DNA of 64,000 bases from Lentimicrobium sp. L6 (GTDB taxonomy: Bacteria; Bacteroidota; Bacteroidia; Bacteroidales; UBA12170): contig NZ_JABKCA010000016.1 in assembly GCF_013166655.1 (NCBI RefSeq), positions 1 through 64,000 on the forward strand, in the 5' to 3' direction. Position 1 is the first letter of the stretch. Every line of letters starts with the position of its first letter. The position numbers and the translations under genes are program-made. Under the pieces are notes generated by a model. It was not told where the DNA came from, ran no database searches, and saw only the letters and a list, made by a program, of their open reading frames with translations. Positions 57,877 through 64,000 of this stretch are shown piece after piece.

Positions 57877-60657
57877 TTAGTCCATCCACTTTTTAAAAAC
57901 CTTTTTCATATCTTCAAAATTTACTGGTTTAGAAATAAAATCTTTCATCCCAGCATTTAAACATTGTGCTTCAGACTCCCCTAATACATTTGCTGTCATG
58001 GCAAATATCAATGGTGCTTTTCTCCCTAAGTCCTGATGATGTTTGAGAATATTTCTAGTAGCATCCAAACCATCCATTTCAGGCATTTGCACATCCATTA
58101 AAATTATGTCATAATCTTTTTCCATACAAGCTTCCACAGCCAAGCGACCATTCACCGCCAAGTCGGCTTCTAAGCCTAGGTTCTTTAACTGACTCAATGT
58201 TACTTTCTGATTGATTAGATTATCCTCGGCAACTAATATCTTTAACTCCGATAACTTAAAGCTAGAATCCGTCTTAGCTAGAATCATTTTATTTCTATCA
58301 TCCTCTAATAATCCCATAGCTAACCTAATGGAACGACATAATTTATGCTCGCGGGCAGGTTTCATTAAATAGATATTAAACAAATCTCTTTCTTGTGGAC
58401 TAAAATCTACTTTAATACTAGAAAGAATAATGATCGGAAGAGCAGAAAAGCCTGATGTAGTTCTTATTTTCGAAGCTACCTCAATACCTAAACAATCGGG
58501 CATCTGCATATCTATAATTGCTAAATCGATATTTAGTACTTCAAATTTCTCTATGGCCAATAAAGGATCTTGAAAAGCAAAAACCTCAAATCCCCAAATA
58601 GACAATTGCTTCGTTAAAATGGTTAAATTGGTTTCATTATCATCAAGTATTAAAGCTCTTTTATTTTCAAATATGCATTCATCAGATATGTTTCCTGGTA
58701 AATGTTCCGACTTGTCCATCTTTGCAAGAATAGTGAAATAAAATACAGACCCTTTGTTTTCTTCCGACTCCAGTCCAATTTGGCCACCTAATAAATTTAC
58801 CAATTGCTTACTGATGGCTAATCCTAAGCCAGTACCCTCAAAGCGTCTTGCAATACTTGCATCCACTTGTGAAAACGATTGGAACAAACGATCAATCTTA
58901 TCCTTTGGAATACCGATGCCTGTATCTTTCACTCTAAACTCTACTTCAACACCCTCCTCCGAGCTGTTTATTATTCCAAGATGCAGCAGAATTTCTCCCT
59001 CAAAAGTGAACTTTATGGCATTATTTATCAAATTAACAAGTACTTGTTTTAACCGATGTGGATCAGAAATAATATATTTCGGCAAATTATCATCATAAGT
59101 TAACAAAAGCTCCAGTTTCTTTTTTGCTGCAGTAGAGGAAAGCAGAGCGAGTACATCTTCGGCCGTTTCTACTAAATTGAAACTTTGCAATTCCAACTCC
59201 ATTTTTCCTTGCTCAATCTTAGAGTAATCTAAAATATCATTAATTACGGTCAATAGATTATCTCCACTTATTTTTATAGTTTCCACATACTCAAATTGCT
59301 CCTTTGTAAGATCCGTGCGTTTTAGAAGATCTGTCATTCCAATGACACCATTCATAGGTGTTCTGATTTCATGACTCATAGTAGCCAAAAACTCTGCTTT
59401 AACCTTAGCTCCTTGCTCAGCTTTTAGTTTGGCTTGCTTAAAATAATAAGCAAATTGATAAGATAGAATTAGAGATTGAAAGAAAAAGAATAATAAATAC
59501 CCAATGAAATACCAATAAGGATAAGCAGGTAAATAGCCCATATAATTCAAGATATGAGTTACAAAAACACTAAAAAGGACAAGAACACTTATTATTCCAT
59601 AAAAAGATCCTGCTCTCTTTCGATAAGCAGCAAAAACAAAAATCCATGTTCCATAGGCTATATAAACAAATAAAATCCCAAAAAATGGTAATATCAAAAA
59701 GGTGAAAATTTTACTACTTAAGAAAATGGTGATAAATACCAATACCAATGACATGGCTTTTAAAACATTGGCTGCCCACTTTTTGGTTTCTTGTGGATAT
59801 ACCGATTGAATAAAAAGCATAAAAAAGAAGGGACTCAAAAACAAGGTAATATATTCTAGCCTTACCGTCAGGTGCCAACTTAAATTTGGGAATATGGAAT
59901 GAAGATAATACTCCCCTGTCCCGATAATCCTATAGCTGTAAACCAAACAAAACATGCTAAAATATAAAATAGCTTTATTATGCCTACCAAAAATAAACAA
60001 CCCCATAAAAAACAATCCTCCCATGAGTAATGCTCCTGTCAAAAGCAGATCTATACCAATAAGTTTTTCTCTTTCCTGAAGTACATTTTTGGCTTTACCT
60101 AAAAGTGGAGGTATAATAAGACCACCTTTACTATGATGAAAATTAGAGATTAGAATAACGAGTTCCATACTATCTGAATGAACCCGAAAGGGATATGCTT
60201 GAGGAAGCCAATGCGGAACTGACTCTTCCTCTTTGTCAGATACCACACCATTCTTAGCAATGAGCTTTCCATCCATATAAAATTCATAAGCAGAATAGAA
60301 GTCATGAAGCCTAAAGGCGAGTATTTCATTGGTTTTGGGCATCAGTAAGGTCAATCGGTAAGTTGCATATCCATAAGATGAATAGGAATCACCCTCCAAA
60401 TCACCCCAAAGGTGAGGGAAGTAAAGATATTCTGGATTCATATTCAAAATAAACTGGTGTGGCCTTATCAGTTTATTCCAATAAAACTCCCATTCCCCAG
60501 GTAATTCAATAATACTTTTCTCATCCCAATCACGCAGATCTAAAACACCATTTTTAGCATATATCCCATTATTTCCAACATCAGTTGCCGCTCCAAAAAG
60601 AGGAAATACCAAACAAAGAAGCCAACAACCGATAATATTTCGAGCTAATAGGAACAT
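57877..60657 (-). CDS. Hybrid histidine kinase: 7TMR-DISM sensor, HisKA, HATPase, 2xREC
   Basis: This 926-residue kinase has a signal peptide and a periplasmic 7TMR-DISM extracellular beta-sandwich (about 35-190, [11 protein letters not shown] and ATYRLTLL). Seven hydrophobic helices (about 200-400) follow, then HisKA with [15 protein letters not shown] (His near 427) and HATPase with [17 protein letters not shown] and GTGLGLAI. Two receivers start near 672 (LILDDNE, acceptor in AIIDMQMP) and 811 (LVAEDN, acceptor in [12 protein letters not shown]). Extracellular DISM domains are thought to bind carbohydrates, which would suit a glucan-rich locus, but the ligand is unknown. It is transcribed away from the stressosome operon and could share its regulation or feed into it (inference). 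Confidence 0.93.
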
Positions 60658-60764: not shown

Positions 60765-60795
60765 TTGTTTTTATTAACCAAAATCATTACATTTA
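60765..60795 (+). promoter_or_regulatory. Promoter of the stressosome operon
   Basis: TTG at 60765-60767, 20 bases, then TACATTTA at 60788-60795, one mismatch from the -7 consensus, 32 bases before the ATG at 60828. No other good promoter is seen before the following tightly packed genes. Confidence 0.6.
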
Positions 60796-60827
60796 CAATA
60801 AGAAATCAATTATTAAACAATTCAGAC

Positions 60828-61193
60828 ATGAAACATAAAATTTGGTATGATGACAAAACTGGAATTACCTTCATAGAGTTTGTTGGTGATTACTTAAGAA
60901 AGGATGTTGAAGAAGTCATTAATACAGTAAAAGAAAAATTTGAAGGAAAACCCTATAAACAATTACTCACCATAATGAGTATTAACGACAAAGTCGAAAA
61001 CAGAGAAACTCGTGAAGCTTCAAGCAAAGGATTAGCCACAACAGGAGCAACCGATATTGCCTTTGTTGGTGGGAGTGCCGCAAACAGAATGGTAGCAAGA
61101 GTCTTAATCAAAACAGGTGTTATTAAAATAAATGGTGACTTTTTCAAATCTGAAGAAAAAGCTATAGAATGGTTGAAAAGTAAAAGATCATAA
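60828..61193 (+). CDS. SpoIIAA-like/STAS-related protein leading the stressosome operon
   Basis: 121 residues from the ATG at 60828; the frame is open from 60765, but that part covers the promoter. It resembles the SpoIIAA-like (STAS/SEC14-type) family: an opening strand pair (KIWYDDKTGITFIEFVGDYL), a central helix and strand (IAFVGGSAANRMVARVLI), and the typical ending FFKSEEKAIEWLKSK. It lacks the DS/DT phosphosite motif found in RsbS and RsbR, so it is probably not a phosphorylated antagonist of the classical type. It starts the operon, four bases before rsbR, so it may be an accessory stressosome subunit or input protein. That role is inference; fold assignment is moderately sure. Confidence 0.75.
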   Translation: MKHKIWYDDKTGITFIEFVGDYLRKDVEEVINTVKEKFEGKPYKQLLTIMSINDKVENRETREASSKGLATTGATDIAFVGGSAANRMVARVLIKTGVIKINGDFFKSEEKAIEWLKSKRS

Positions 61194-61197
61194 AAAA

Positions 61198-61884
61198 ATG
61201 GAAGAAAATTTAGAATTATCAAATGTAAAAGCACGCATCGATCATATTGAAGATGTACTTTCATCAGTAGCTGCTGGAGATTTAGATATCAGAGTTGAAT
61301 CAAATATTGAAGATGATCTCACTGGTATTGAAGAAGCTATTAATATTTTAATTGACGATCTCACCTATGAGCTCAAACAAAGTATTAATATGCAAAATGA
61401 TCTTCAAGAAAAACTAAAGAAAATCCAAGAACAACAAAAGACTATTGTTCAACAACAAGAAGATTTAATGGAACTTTCGAGTCCTGTAAGTAAAGTTTGG
61501 GACAATATCCTCATCCTTCCTGTAATTGGAACTTTAGATAGCCAAAGAACTCAAATCATGATGGAGAATCTTCTTCAAAAAATTGTGGATACCAGTTGCA
61601 CCATGGCCATTCTTGATATCACTGGAGTACCGACTGTTGATACTCAAGTGGCAAATCACCTTTTAAAAACAGTAACTTCTGCAAGGCTTTTAGGCGCCGA
61701 TTGTATCATCAGCGGAATTAGTCCTGCTATAGCACAAACCATTGTTCACCTTGGAATTGATTTATCTATCATTAGAACCAAAGCAACATTACAAGACGCC
61801 ATGATTTATGCTATGAAGCAAAATAAAAAATCGGGAGCAGTCATAGCAAGTAGTATGGAAGAAATAGAAGAAAGAGAGGAATAA
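61198..61884 (+). CDS. rsbR: RsbR-type stressosome protein with HAMP-like coiled-coil N-terminus
   Basis: 228 residues. The C-terminal STAS domain (about 95-212) aligns well with Bacillus subtilis RsbRA: GTLDSQRTQIMMENLL, LDITGVPTVDTQVANHLL and GISPAIAQTIVHLGIDLS. The two RsbT target sites align as S115 (Thr171 in RsbRA) and T149 (Thr205). The sensor half differs: instead of a non-heme globin domain, residues 15-60 look like a soluble HAMP unit (AAGDLDIRV...DDLTGIEEAINILIDDL), followed by a Gln-rich coiled coil (60-92). No transmembrane helix, so cytosolic. Its stop overlaps the rsbS start by one base (TAATG). Confidence 0.9.
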   Translation: MEENLELSNVKARIDHIEDVLSSVAAGDLDIRVESNIEDDLTGIEEAINILIDDLTYELKQSINMQNDLQEKLKKIQEQQKTIVQQQEDLMELSSPVSKVWDNILILPVIGTLDSQRTQIMMENLLQKIVDTSCTMAILDITGVPTVDTQVANHLLKTVTSARLLGADCIISGISPAIAQTIVHLGIDLSIIRTKATLQDAMIYAMKQNKKSGAVIASSMEEIEEREE

Positions 61885-62270
61885 TGGATCATTTTCAAGA
61901 AAAAAAGATCCCTATTATAAAAATAGGCTCATATTTAATCGTATCTATTCAGGTAGATATGCACGACAAACTTGCCCTCCAATTACAATCTCAAATTCTA
62001 AATGAAATTGAGAAAACAGGAGCCAAAGGAGTTCTAATTGATATTTCTGTTTTAGAAATGGTAGATAGTTTCATTGGCAGAATGCTTTCAGGAATGGCAT
62101 CTATGGCAAGCATTATGGATGCGGCTGTAGTAATTGTAGGTATGCAACCAGCAGTAGCAATAACCCTAGTAGAACTCGGCCTCGAAATGCCAGGAGTTGA
62201 TACCGCATTAAATATGGAACGAGGAATGGAGCTTCTTGAAAGAAGAATGGCCTCCATCAATGATGATTAA
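61884..62270 (+). CDS. rsbS: RsbS-type stressosome scaffold (STAS)
   Basis: This 128-residue single STAS domain is closely like Bacillus RsbS along its length: IPIIKIGSYLIVSIQVDM at the start, ETGAKG-like KTGAKGVLIDISVLEMVDSFIG with the phosphosite S62 (Ser59 in Bacillus), and VGMQPAVAITLVELGLEM near the end. RsbS forms the stressosome core with RsbR and holds RsbT until stress-induced phosphorylation frees it. It is coupled to rsbR and is followed 12 bases later by rsbT. Confidence 0.93.
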   Translation: MDHFQEKKIPIIKIGSYLIVSIQVDMHDKLALQLQSQILNEIEKTGAKGVLIDISVLEMVDSFIGRMLSGMASMASIMDAAVVIVGMQPAVAITLVELGLEMPGVDTALNMERGMELLERRMASINDD

Positions 62271-62282
62271 AAAGTTCAGACT

Positions 62283-62708
62283 ATGCAAGCTTTTGAATAT
62301 GATAGCGATTGGACTGAGCTGGGTGTTTTTCCTGTGAAAACAGAAAACGATATAGTAAAAGTTCGTCAAATGGCACGACAGTATGCCAAGGATTTCAAAA
62401 TGGGAATCGTTGAGCAAACTCGAATAACCACGGCTGTTAGCGAACTACTCAGAAACATGTACCAATACGCAAATGGAGGTGAAGTAACCATTAACCAAGG
62501 TTATTTCGATGGGCATAATGCACTCATATTTACCTTTGAAGACCAAGGCCCAGGAATAGAAAACCTTGATTTGGCCATGAGCGATGGCTATACCTCTGGA
62601 GGCGGTATGGGTTATGGCTTACCTGGGGCAAAACGACTGGTAGACTCCTTTGAAATAAGAACAGAAGTAAATACTGGAACACTAATTCGACTCATGAAAT
62701 GGAAGTAA
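62283..62708 (+). CDS. rsbT: RsbT-type serine/threonine kinase
   Basis: This 141-residue GHKL-fold kinase should phosphorylate the RsbR and RsbS STAS domains and then leave the complex. N-box: TTAVSELLRNMYQYA with N58. G1 box: FEDQGPGI with D87. G2 box: SGGGMGYGLPGAKRL, the RsbT-specific loop, and the ending TLIRLMKWK matches Bacillus RsbT. In Bacillus freed RsbT activates the phosphatase RsbU. Here the next gene carries a PP2C domain and overlaps rsbT by 10 bases. Confidence 0.94.
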   Translation: MQAFEYDSDWTELGVFPVKTENDIVKVRQMARQYAKDFKMGIVEQTRITTAVSELLRNMYQYANGGEVTINQGYFDGHNALIFTFEDQGPGIENLDLAMSDGYTSGGGMGYGLPGAKRLVDSFEIRTEVNTGTLIRLMKWK

Positions 62709-63760
62709 AACGAAGTCATATTTTAAGTTTCCCTATAGATAATGAATCTGATGTTGGAGTCTGTCGAAGGAAGTCAGCTGTACTGGCTTCCCAAATAGGT
62801 TTTAACCAAGTAAAAACTGGTGAAATTGCAATTATTGTAACAGAGTTAGTTACCAATGTATTAAAACATGGTGGAGGCAGCGGAAAAGTAGTTATCTGCC
62901 AATTAGAAAATAACATCAACCAAAAAGCCATTGAGCTTTGGTGTTGTGATTCTGGGGAGGGAATTTCAAATTTTAATGATGTGCTTAAAGATGGAGTAAG
63001 CAATGCTAATACATTGGGACTTGGCTTAGGAAGCATTAGAAGATTTAGCGATGAATTAGAAGTAAATCCGGAACCTCATTCTGAAATTAATGAAATCTAT
63101 TTTGACGATTTACATACTTTTAAAAACTGTATAAGATCACGTAAATGGTTACCACCTAAACAATGGTTAGGAAACAATTCAAAATTAGAAACGGGTGTGG
63201 CATCCAGACCAAAACCTGGTGAAACCTTAAATGGTGATGGCCATGTCATTACTCATATTAACTCAAACAATTGTGTTGCAGCTTGTATCGATGGTTTAGG
63301 TCATGGAAAAGAAGCCAATATCGCTTCCCAACTCGCCAAACAAGCCATCATACAAAAAGCAGAACTTCCTCTCGATGCTTTAATGAAAAACATTCACCAA
63401 TCTATTAGAGGAACAAGAGGAGTGGTTATGGGTTTAGTTTCCATAAATACAGAACAAGAAAAAATATCATTTTGTGGAACTGGAAACATTGAAAGTTTTT
63501 TAATGACAAACAATGGTAAACAAAATTTACTTTCCTTTGGAGGGATAATGGGGCATAATATGAGAACTCCACGGGTTTTTGAATTTCCTTTTAAAGCAGG
63601 AGATTCCCTTTGTATGTACTCCGATGGAATTACCTCTCGATGGAAACACGAAGATATAGACTGGACTTTAGCTCCACAAAAGAATGCCGAATATATTTTA
63701 AATCAATTTTCTAGATCCAATGACGACGCTACCGTTCTTATCATCAGCCACACTTTATAA
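62699..63760 (+). CDS. GHKL ATPase-SpoIIE/PP2C phosphatase fusion (RsbX/RsbU-like)
   Basis: 353 residues in two parts. Residues 1-135 are an RsbT/RsbW-like ATPase: N-box TELVTNVLKHGG (N53), G1 CCDSGEGI (D84), G2 NTLGLGLGSIRR. Residues 160-353 are a PP2C/SpoIIE-type phosphatase: CIDGLGHGKEANIAS with D198, GVVMGLVSINTEQEKISF, MYSDGITSRW and the ending NDDATVLIIS. The small phosphatase half resembles RsbX, which resets the stressosome by dephosphorylating RsbR and RsbS; it could instead act downstream like RsbU. The added ATPase half may phosphorylate the same or another STAS protein, giving kinase and phosphatase on one chain (inference). It overlaps rsbT by 10 bases and the next gene by 41. 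Confidence 0.88.
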   Translation: MEVKRSHILSFPIDNESDVGVCRRKSAVLASQIGFNQVKTGEIAIIVTELVTNVLKHGGGSGKVVICQLENNINQKAIELWCCDSGEGISNFNDVLKDGVSNANTLGLGLGSIRRFSDELEVNPEPHSEINEIYFDDLHTFKNCIRSRKWLPPKQWLGNNSKLETGVASRPKPGETLNGDGHVITHINSNNCVAACIDGLGHGKEANIASQLAKQAIIQKAELPLDALMKNIHQSIRGTRGVVMGLVSINTEQEKISFCGTGNIESFLMTNNGKQNLLSFGGIMGHNMRTPRVFEFPFKAGDSLCMYSDGITSRWKHEDIDWTLAPQKNAEYILNQFSRSNDDATVLIISHTL

Positions 63761-64000
63761 TGTAGGCGAACTTAAGATTCAATTTGAGTCAGATGTGGTT
63801 CGTGGTCGTAATTTGGGCTCCATGTTAGCTCAAGAAATAAAGTATGACAATACGAACAAAATTCGTATTGGAACCACAATATCTGAACTTACCAGAAATA
63901 TTATTGAACATGCAAGTCATGGAACCCTAAACTTTTCAATTGCAACTCGAGAAAGAGGCTCCGATGGCTTGGTTCTTGTCTTTGCTGATCAAGGAGACGG
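63720..64000 (+). CDS. GHKL ATPase-domain protein, 3' end cut by window edge
   Basis: An open frame starts at ATG 63720 and runs off the right edge, giving 93 visible residues. The beginning (MTTLPFLSSATLYNVGELKI) is followed by an RsbT/RsbW-like ATPase: TISELTRNIIEHASHG (N-box) and VFADQGDG (start of the G1 box). The frame begins 41 bases inside the previous gene, an unusually long overlap that points to tight coupling; a later start such as a non-ATG codon near 63760 cannot be excluded. In known Bacteroidota RST modules the following genes often carry two-component kinase domains, so this may be the N-terminus of a hybrid kinase output protein. Confidence 0.75.
   Translation, partial: MTTLPFLSSATLYNVGELKIQFESDVVRGRNLGSMLAQEIKYDNTNKIRIGTTISELTRNIIEHASHGTLNFSIATRERGSDGLVLVFADQGD

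Follow-up and report, generated by a model that had tools for sequence, protein, structure and literature searches.

How a stressosome passes on its signal in a bacterium without sigma-B is the question raised by an operon at the end of a 64,000-nucleotide stretch of DNA from Lentimicrobium sp. L6, a member of the Bacteroidota (contig NZ_JABKCA010000016.1). This stretch, hereafter the window, comprises bases 1-64000 of a contig of 74,250 bases. A first-pass annotation of the window had recognised equivalents of RsbR, RsbS and RsbT in this operon and left the target of the RsbT-like kinase open. We lean towards the view that the operon encodes a stressosome without sigma-B and that a hybrid histidine kinase from the same operon, here called K, serves as its output; K would be coupled to the stressosome by an RsbT-paralogue domain of its own. 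The claim of a packed six-gene operon was reproduced exactly, in all frames and in the spacings of 4, -1, 12, -10 and -41 bases (negative values are overlaps). The six genes are:

60828..61193, + strand: gene 1, the operon lead, a SpoIIAA-like/DUF7793 protein of 121 amino acids (Pfam DUF7793, 33 bits with a cut-off of 26; SpoIIAA-like, 23.9 bits with a cut-off of 25).
61198..61884, + strand: RsbR, with HAMP and coiled coil (residues about 1-90) and a STAS domain (98-201, 57.5 bits) carrying S115 and T149.
61884..62270, + strand: RsbS, a single STAS domain with S62.
62283..62708, + strand: RsbT, a stand-alone switch serine kinase with E54, R57, N58 and D87 intact (HATPase_c and HATPase_c_2 above cut-off; T class of the ATPase-domain tree).
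62699..63760, + strand: gene 5 (X), an RsbT-like ATPase domain (18-126; HATPase_c_2, 45.8 bits) followed by a SpoIIE-type PP2C phosphatase domain (192-350; SpoIIE, 45.2 bits); X clade of the tree.
63720..64000 in the window and on to 65990 (L002:6721-8991), + strand: gene 6 (K), a hybrid histidine kinase of 756 amino acids.

Gene 1 begins at the ATG at 60828, which is the start used by all homologues, and not at the TTG at 60765. Every site cited for the RsbR-RsbS-RsbT set in Bacillus order is present, and the sites are conserved well beyond the window. Of 92 RsbR homologues, 86 keep S115 and 90 have a threonine or serine at position 149; RsbS S62, which sits in a VDSF motif, is a serine in all 96 homologues; and N58 of the RsbT N-box is found in 96/96 sequences and D87 of the G1 box in 95/96, the remaining row being gapped. 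When RsbR is aligned with the RsbR chains of PDB entries 9o3o and 9o4r, S115 falls on residue 175 and T149 on residue 209, at a constant offset of 60, and this alignment led us to reject the threonine of a VDT motif in RsbR as the equivalent of Bacillus T171. The best PDB match of RsbR is the Anti-anti-sigma factor chain 7o0i_B (E=3e-34), from what we take to be the V. vulnificus stressosome structure, and RsbS matches the RsbS structure 6jhk with E=3e-32. As the whole operon is also syntenic in other Bacteroidales, these matches indicate that the stressosome assignment is not due to chance. The core consists of an RsbS with its serine, an RsbR with a C-terminal STAS domain and two sites, and, behind RsbS, an RsbT with intact E, N and G1/G2 boxes. 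The PP2C phosphatase gene directly behind rsbT gives the locus an rsbRSTX arrangement, and X is, on its predicted domains, the gene for the phosphatase in the RsbX role.

No sigma-B branch was found next to this operon, and no SigB-family sigma factor above the cut-off elsewhere in the genome. None of the genes read from 64000 to the contig end is an rsbV, rsbW or sigB, as the first-pass annotation had noted for the part visible to it, and over the same distance the gene order is not that of a Bacillus-type SigB operon with rsbU, rsbV, rsbW and sigB beside rsbRST. The genes that follow K are instead a TPR-SpoIIE gene in convergent orientation, trmD and one for an adenylate cyclase. A SigBFG profile search of the whole genome gave no match above the family cut-off, in keeping with the first-pass reading of a stressosome module without sigma-B. 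The only two full-length matches, both below the cut-off, are RpoD-like proteins of 287-288 amino acids, and a second sigma factor acting as a hidden SigB was rejected for this reason. An RsbW-like protein (C28) and an RsbT-like protein (C5) were likewise dismissed as sigma regulators, as no sigma gene lies nearby in the stretches read. The latter is a stand-alone RsbT-like ATPase of 141 amino acids (G000:C5, L139:5735-6160, - strand) amid [FeFe]-hydrogenase-, NuoE/NuoF-type- and iron-sulfur hydrogenase-like genes. A Bacteroidota -7 promoter motif was sought between the divergent genes and none was found; in the window the motif occurs at chance frequency. The SigB-linked operon is apparently limited to Bacillales, and rsbRSTX modules that lack sigB are widespread and occur in Bacteroidetes too (PMC9237108). 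Sigma-B-free stressosomes are therefore already known, and the case is less surprising than had first been implied.

What, then, does the stressosome control? The view that the target of the RsbT-like kinase is open holds in that there is no sigma-B route, and gives way in that the sixth gene of the operon encodes a likely output. K, most of which lies past the window edge, is predicted to consist of an RsbT-like ATPase domain (HATPase_c_2, 40-141), a linker helix, a HisKA domain (239-304), a HATPase_c domain (351-468) and two REC domains. We compared 80 loci from named genomes and 15 further Bacteroidota neighbourhoods, annotated with the window's own domains. The synteny comparison that had been suggested for related genomes recovered the six genes in the same order in those Bacteroidales loci that are long enough, including Draconibacterium orientale FH5T and Maribellus maritimus, and in most of these X and K overlap by 41 bases, as in the window. 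The genes that flank the operon in the window were found beside the module in no locus outside the genus, and as R-S-T-X-K persists while the flanks change, the operon is a conserved unit. The same R-S-T-X-K order, in this case without gene 1, is found in Pseudomonadota, Cyanobacteriota, Acidobacteriota, Gemmatimonadota, Verrucomicrobiota, Planctomycetota and other Bacteroidota. The spread is patchy, with RsbS in three of the 60 nearest genomes and in 14 of 396 in a phylum sample (the window's own genome counted); in a concatenated tree, the Bacteroidales fall into a single group with full support, separate from a Cytophagia/Sphingobacteriia group. The patchy distribution and the tree fit horizontal spread or repeated loss.

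The flanking hybrid kinases and receiver proteins had been put forward as output candidates, and this did not survive the comparison: K, and not the flanks, is kept with the module across Bacteroidales and other phyla. A 7TMR-DISM hybrid kinase (window 57877-60657, - strand) is divergent from the operon and the TPR-SpoIIE phosphatase (L002:8988-11231, - strand) is convergent with it; neither remains a neighbour of the module beyond the genus, and both were rejected as outputs on that ground. One might still argue that K is a separate sensor that merely shares the operon, and that RsbT acts on an unlinked target such as the neighbouring TPR-SpoIIE phosphatase or another partner-switching protein. 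Further HATPase_c_2 and SpoIIE-domain proteins in the genome could serve in this way, yet the order X-K is kept across other Bacteroidales and further phyla, whereas the neighbouring TPR-SpoIIE and 7TMR kinases are confined to the genus, and we regard this alternative as improbable. Two histidine phosphotransfer (HPt) domains are encoded in the genome, one of them as a stand-alone protein of 113 amino acids, which is a possible partner of the REC domains of K. The K proteins of Draconibacterium and Maribellus stop after a single REC domain, and a separate REC-HisKA-HATPase protein is encoded behind them (L057:11962-13122, L060:12019-13128); judged from the genes, the phosphorelay tail is rearranged in these two.

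The operon encodes three RsbT-like ATPase domains, in T (RsbT), X and K. A tree of these domains across phyla contains an X clade and a T/K group, in which T and K are closest; the two are almost cleanly split, with three label changes where the minimum is two, although the tree rests on few columns and its supports are moderate. All T and all X domains have the catalytic E and N, as do 38 of the 47 K domains. E54 and R57 are common to every T (96/96) and every K (47/47), and the arginine occurs in only 4 of 85 X domains. From the grouping of T with K and the universal R57 it follows that the N-terminal domain of K is, by its sequence, RsbT-like in kind and not a second histidine-kinase domain. 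The nine K domains that lack the N also lack the G1 box. All belong to Cytophagia/Sphingobacteriia-type Bacteroidota, and on these output kinases (L037-L039, L041-L044, L078 and L110) the degenerate RsbT-like domain is a pseudo-ATPase that keeps the E..R motif. That E54 and R57 are retained even there suggests that the K domain is under selection for something, and the retention of the domain after loss of its ATP-binding residues in one lineage favours a role in binding.

Between this domain and HisKA, the AlphaFold model of a 756-amino-acid homologue from locus L050 contains one helix of 114 residues (152-265), although the predicted local distance difference test score (pLDDT) is only 40-60 over much of its length. 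Within this helix lies a signature, ELxxTN[RQK]GVxALxxEL, which reads ETNRG in K. A profile of the signature gave exactly one match per genome in 11 genomes drawn from several phyla, in each case within the RST locus, and among 41 relatives of the window it was found only in the three that have RsbS, the window's genome included; in these 14 genomes it is the absence of a second match that counts as evidence, and not the match itself, as the profile was built partly from the genomes counted. No other match appeared in 148 Bacteroidota genomes. Between 20 and 82 other candidate places per genome were scored with the profile and all failed, which argues that the signature marks the stressosome kinase.

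RsbU_N is the RsbT-binding domain through which RsbT activates RsbU. At five more distant Bacteroidota loci (L045-L049), X has a single domain and the output kinase starts with RsbU_N, which is above the Pfam cut-off in four of the five and scores 25.0 with a cut-off of 25.5 in the fifth. These kinases have neither the RsbT-like N-terminal domain nor the linker signature, and in the two loci checked, L045 and L048, a LuxR-type regulator follows the kinase. Conversely, RsbU_N was found in none of eight window-class kinases, K included; for K itself there was no match at E<=0.001, and none in its linker region at E<=0.5. HATPase_c_2 is present on K and on the kinases of L053, L072, L088, L090 and L104, and in degenerate form on that of L037; in the Pseudomonas protein (L084) the linker comes first. 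The position that RsbU_N takes up on the kinases of L045-L049 is that of the RsbT-like domain in the window class. RsbT activates RsbU by ordering its coiled-coil linker, and an extension of this mechanism to histidine kinases has been proposed (PMC12143880). Together, the same-position swap and the action of RsbT on the RsbU linker suggest that the RsbT-like domain and the linker form the coupling device in the window class.

We propose that RsbR and RsbS build a STAS core on whose surface the N-terminal domain of K would dock, either beside RsbT or in competition with it. A stimulus would enter through the HAMP domain of RsbR, probably aided by the SpoIIAA-like protein of gene 1. Upon stress, RsbT would phosphorylate S62 of RsbS and S115 and T149 of RsbR. 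The phosphorylated core would release the K domain, the conserved linker helix would alter the dimeric coiled coil and HisKA would be switched on. Phosphate from K could then pass via REC to a histidine phosphotransfer protein encoded elsewhere in the genome, and X would reset phosphorylated RsbS and RsbR. Gene content, intact sites, operon conservation, domain classes and linker specificity are read from the sequence, and from these we infer the binding and phosphotransfer steps. More tentatively, and at somewhat short of even chances, one STAS shell might be a shared docking platform for three RsbT paralogues, the serine kinase T, the phosphatase X and the histidine kinase K. If this is true, the phosphorelay would be switched directly by holding or releasing K, without a freely diffusing RsbT or a sigma factor, and the ETNRG linker would be a transmission element across phyla.

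Alternatively, RsbT freed from the core could bind the K linker in trans, as with RsbU, and the RsbT-like domain of K would then be an accessory, either a heterodimer partner or a brake. Pseudomonas-type kinases, which have the linker signature and no RsbT-like domain, would fit such a route, as would the action of RsbT on the RsbU linker in Bacillus (PMC12143880). Against it, the window-class kinases keep the domain, mostly with intact catalytic residues, and E54 and R57 persist even where it is degenerate. We consider binding in trans unlikely, though the most serious of the competing explanations. Several observations weigh against a coupling of K through its own domain. The interaction and activity of K are predictions from sequence, and in V. 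vulnificus an interaction between RsbT and the output kinase was not detected (PMC9237108). The lack of the RsbT-like domain in Pseudomonas-type kinases means that the linker route can do without it. The signature is missing from some K proteins of Acidobacteriota and Cytophagia/Sphingobacteriia, and the partial overlap between profile and counted genomes and the low model confidence of the linker helix also count on this side.

The input side of the module is peculiar to this Bacteroidales group. About 80 residues precede the STAS domain in the group's RsbR, compared with about 133-254 in nearly all others. RsbRD_N was matched by all nine RsbR proteins tested from other loci, eight of them above the cut-off, whereas the window RsbR has HAMP in its place: the RsbR of L050, a close homologue, passes the Pfam HAMP cut-off (25.6 vs 25), 14 of 15 members match HAMP_2 and nine match HAMP weakly. 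A model of RsbR, of low confidence, has the two helices to be expected, at 8-25 and 37-94, and domain searches of the window-type RsbR recognised no sensor domain. Gene 1 is present in all 18 loci with a HAMP-RsbR and in none of the other loci. The combination of HAMP-RsbR and SpoIIAA-like lead gene is thus a trait of this group, and the gene 1 protein may be a partner of RsbR.

The window module shares with the stressosomes of Bacillus subtilis and Listeria an RsbR STAS domain, RsbS and RsbT, whose phosphorylation and catalytic positions agree and whose genes stand in the same order. It differs from them in the absence of RsbU, RsbV, RsbW and SigB, in a HAMP instead of a globin-like RsbR N-terminus, in an X that is fused to an RsbT-like domain and placed right behind T, and in a hybrid histidine kinase as output. 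With Vibrio vulnificus rsbRSTX and D1-D2 it shares a sigma-B-free RSTX followed by a two-component output, but in Vibrio a haem globin sensor serves as RsbR, RsbX is a single-domain protein and D1 has no known coupling domain (PMC9237108); the N-terminal RsbT-like domain of the window X sets it apart from the single-domain RsbX of this globin-sensor type. The RsbU_N kinases of L045-L049 and of some Proteobacteria resemble K in standing directly behind RSTX with an N-terminal coupling domain, and differ in having RsbU_N and a LuxR-type regulator where the window has the RsbT-like domain, the ETNRG linker and REC-REC. Could this be a plain rsbRSTX module of the described kind with a two-component output and nothing else to set it apart? 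Heinz et al. (2022) list HisKA/REC outputs behind rsbRSTX (PMC9237108). However, their RsbX proteins have a single domain and their outputs, the Vibrio kinase included, mostly have no detectable coupling domain (PMC9237108), whereas here X and K carry RsbT-like domains, K has the linker signature, RsbR has HAMP and not RsbRD_N, and there is a lead gene; we judge this explanation very improbable. In the literature searched, no RsbT-like domain on an output kinase, linker signature or HAMP-RsbR/gene 1 input is described, with the qualification that Pane-Farre 2005 and 2017, not covered in full text, may hold parts. We regard the output-kinase architecture, the linker signature and the HAMP-RsbR/SpoIIAA-like input as new, with priority uncertain.

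For the many bacteria that lack sigma-B, it is an open question how stressosomes signal, and for most of the outputs considered no coupling domain has been detected (PMC9237108). What the window and its relatives suggest is a coupling element that is specific and testable and occurs in several phyla, namely an RsbT paralogue and a linker signature on the output kinase; they also point to the HAMP-type RsbR with its associated SpoIIAA-like protein as a different kind of stressosome input. Taken together, this architecture suggests how sigma-B-free stressosomes may relay their signal.

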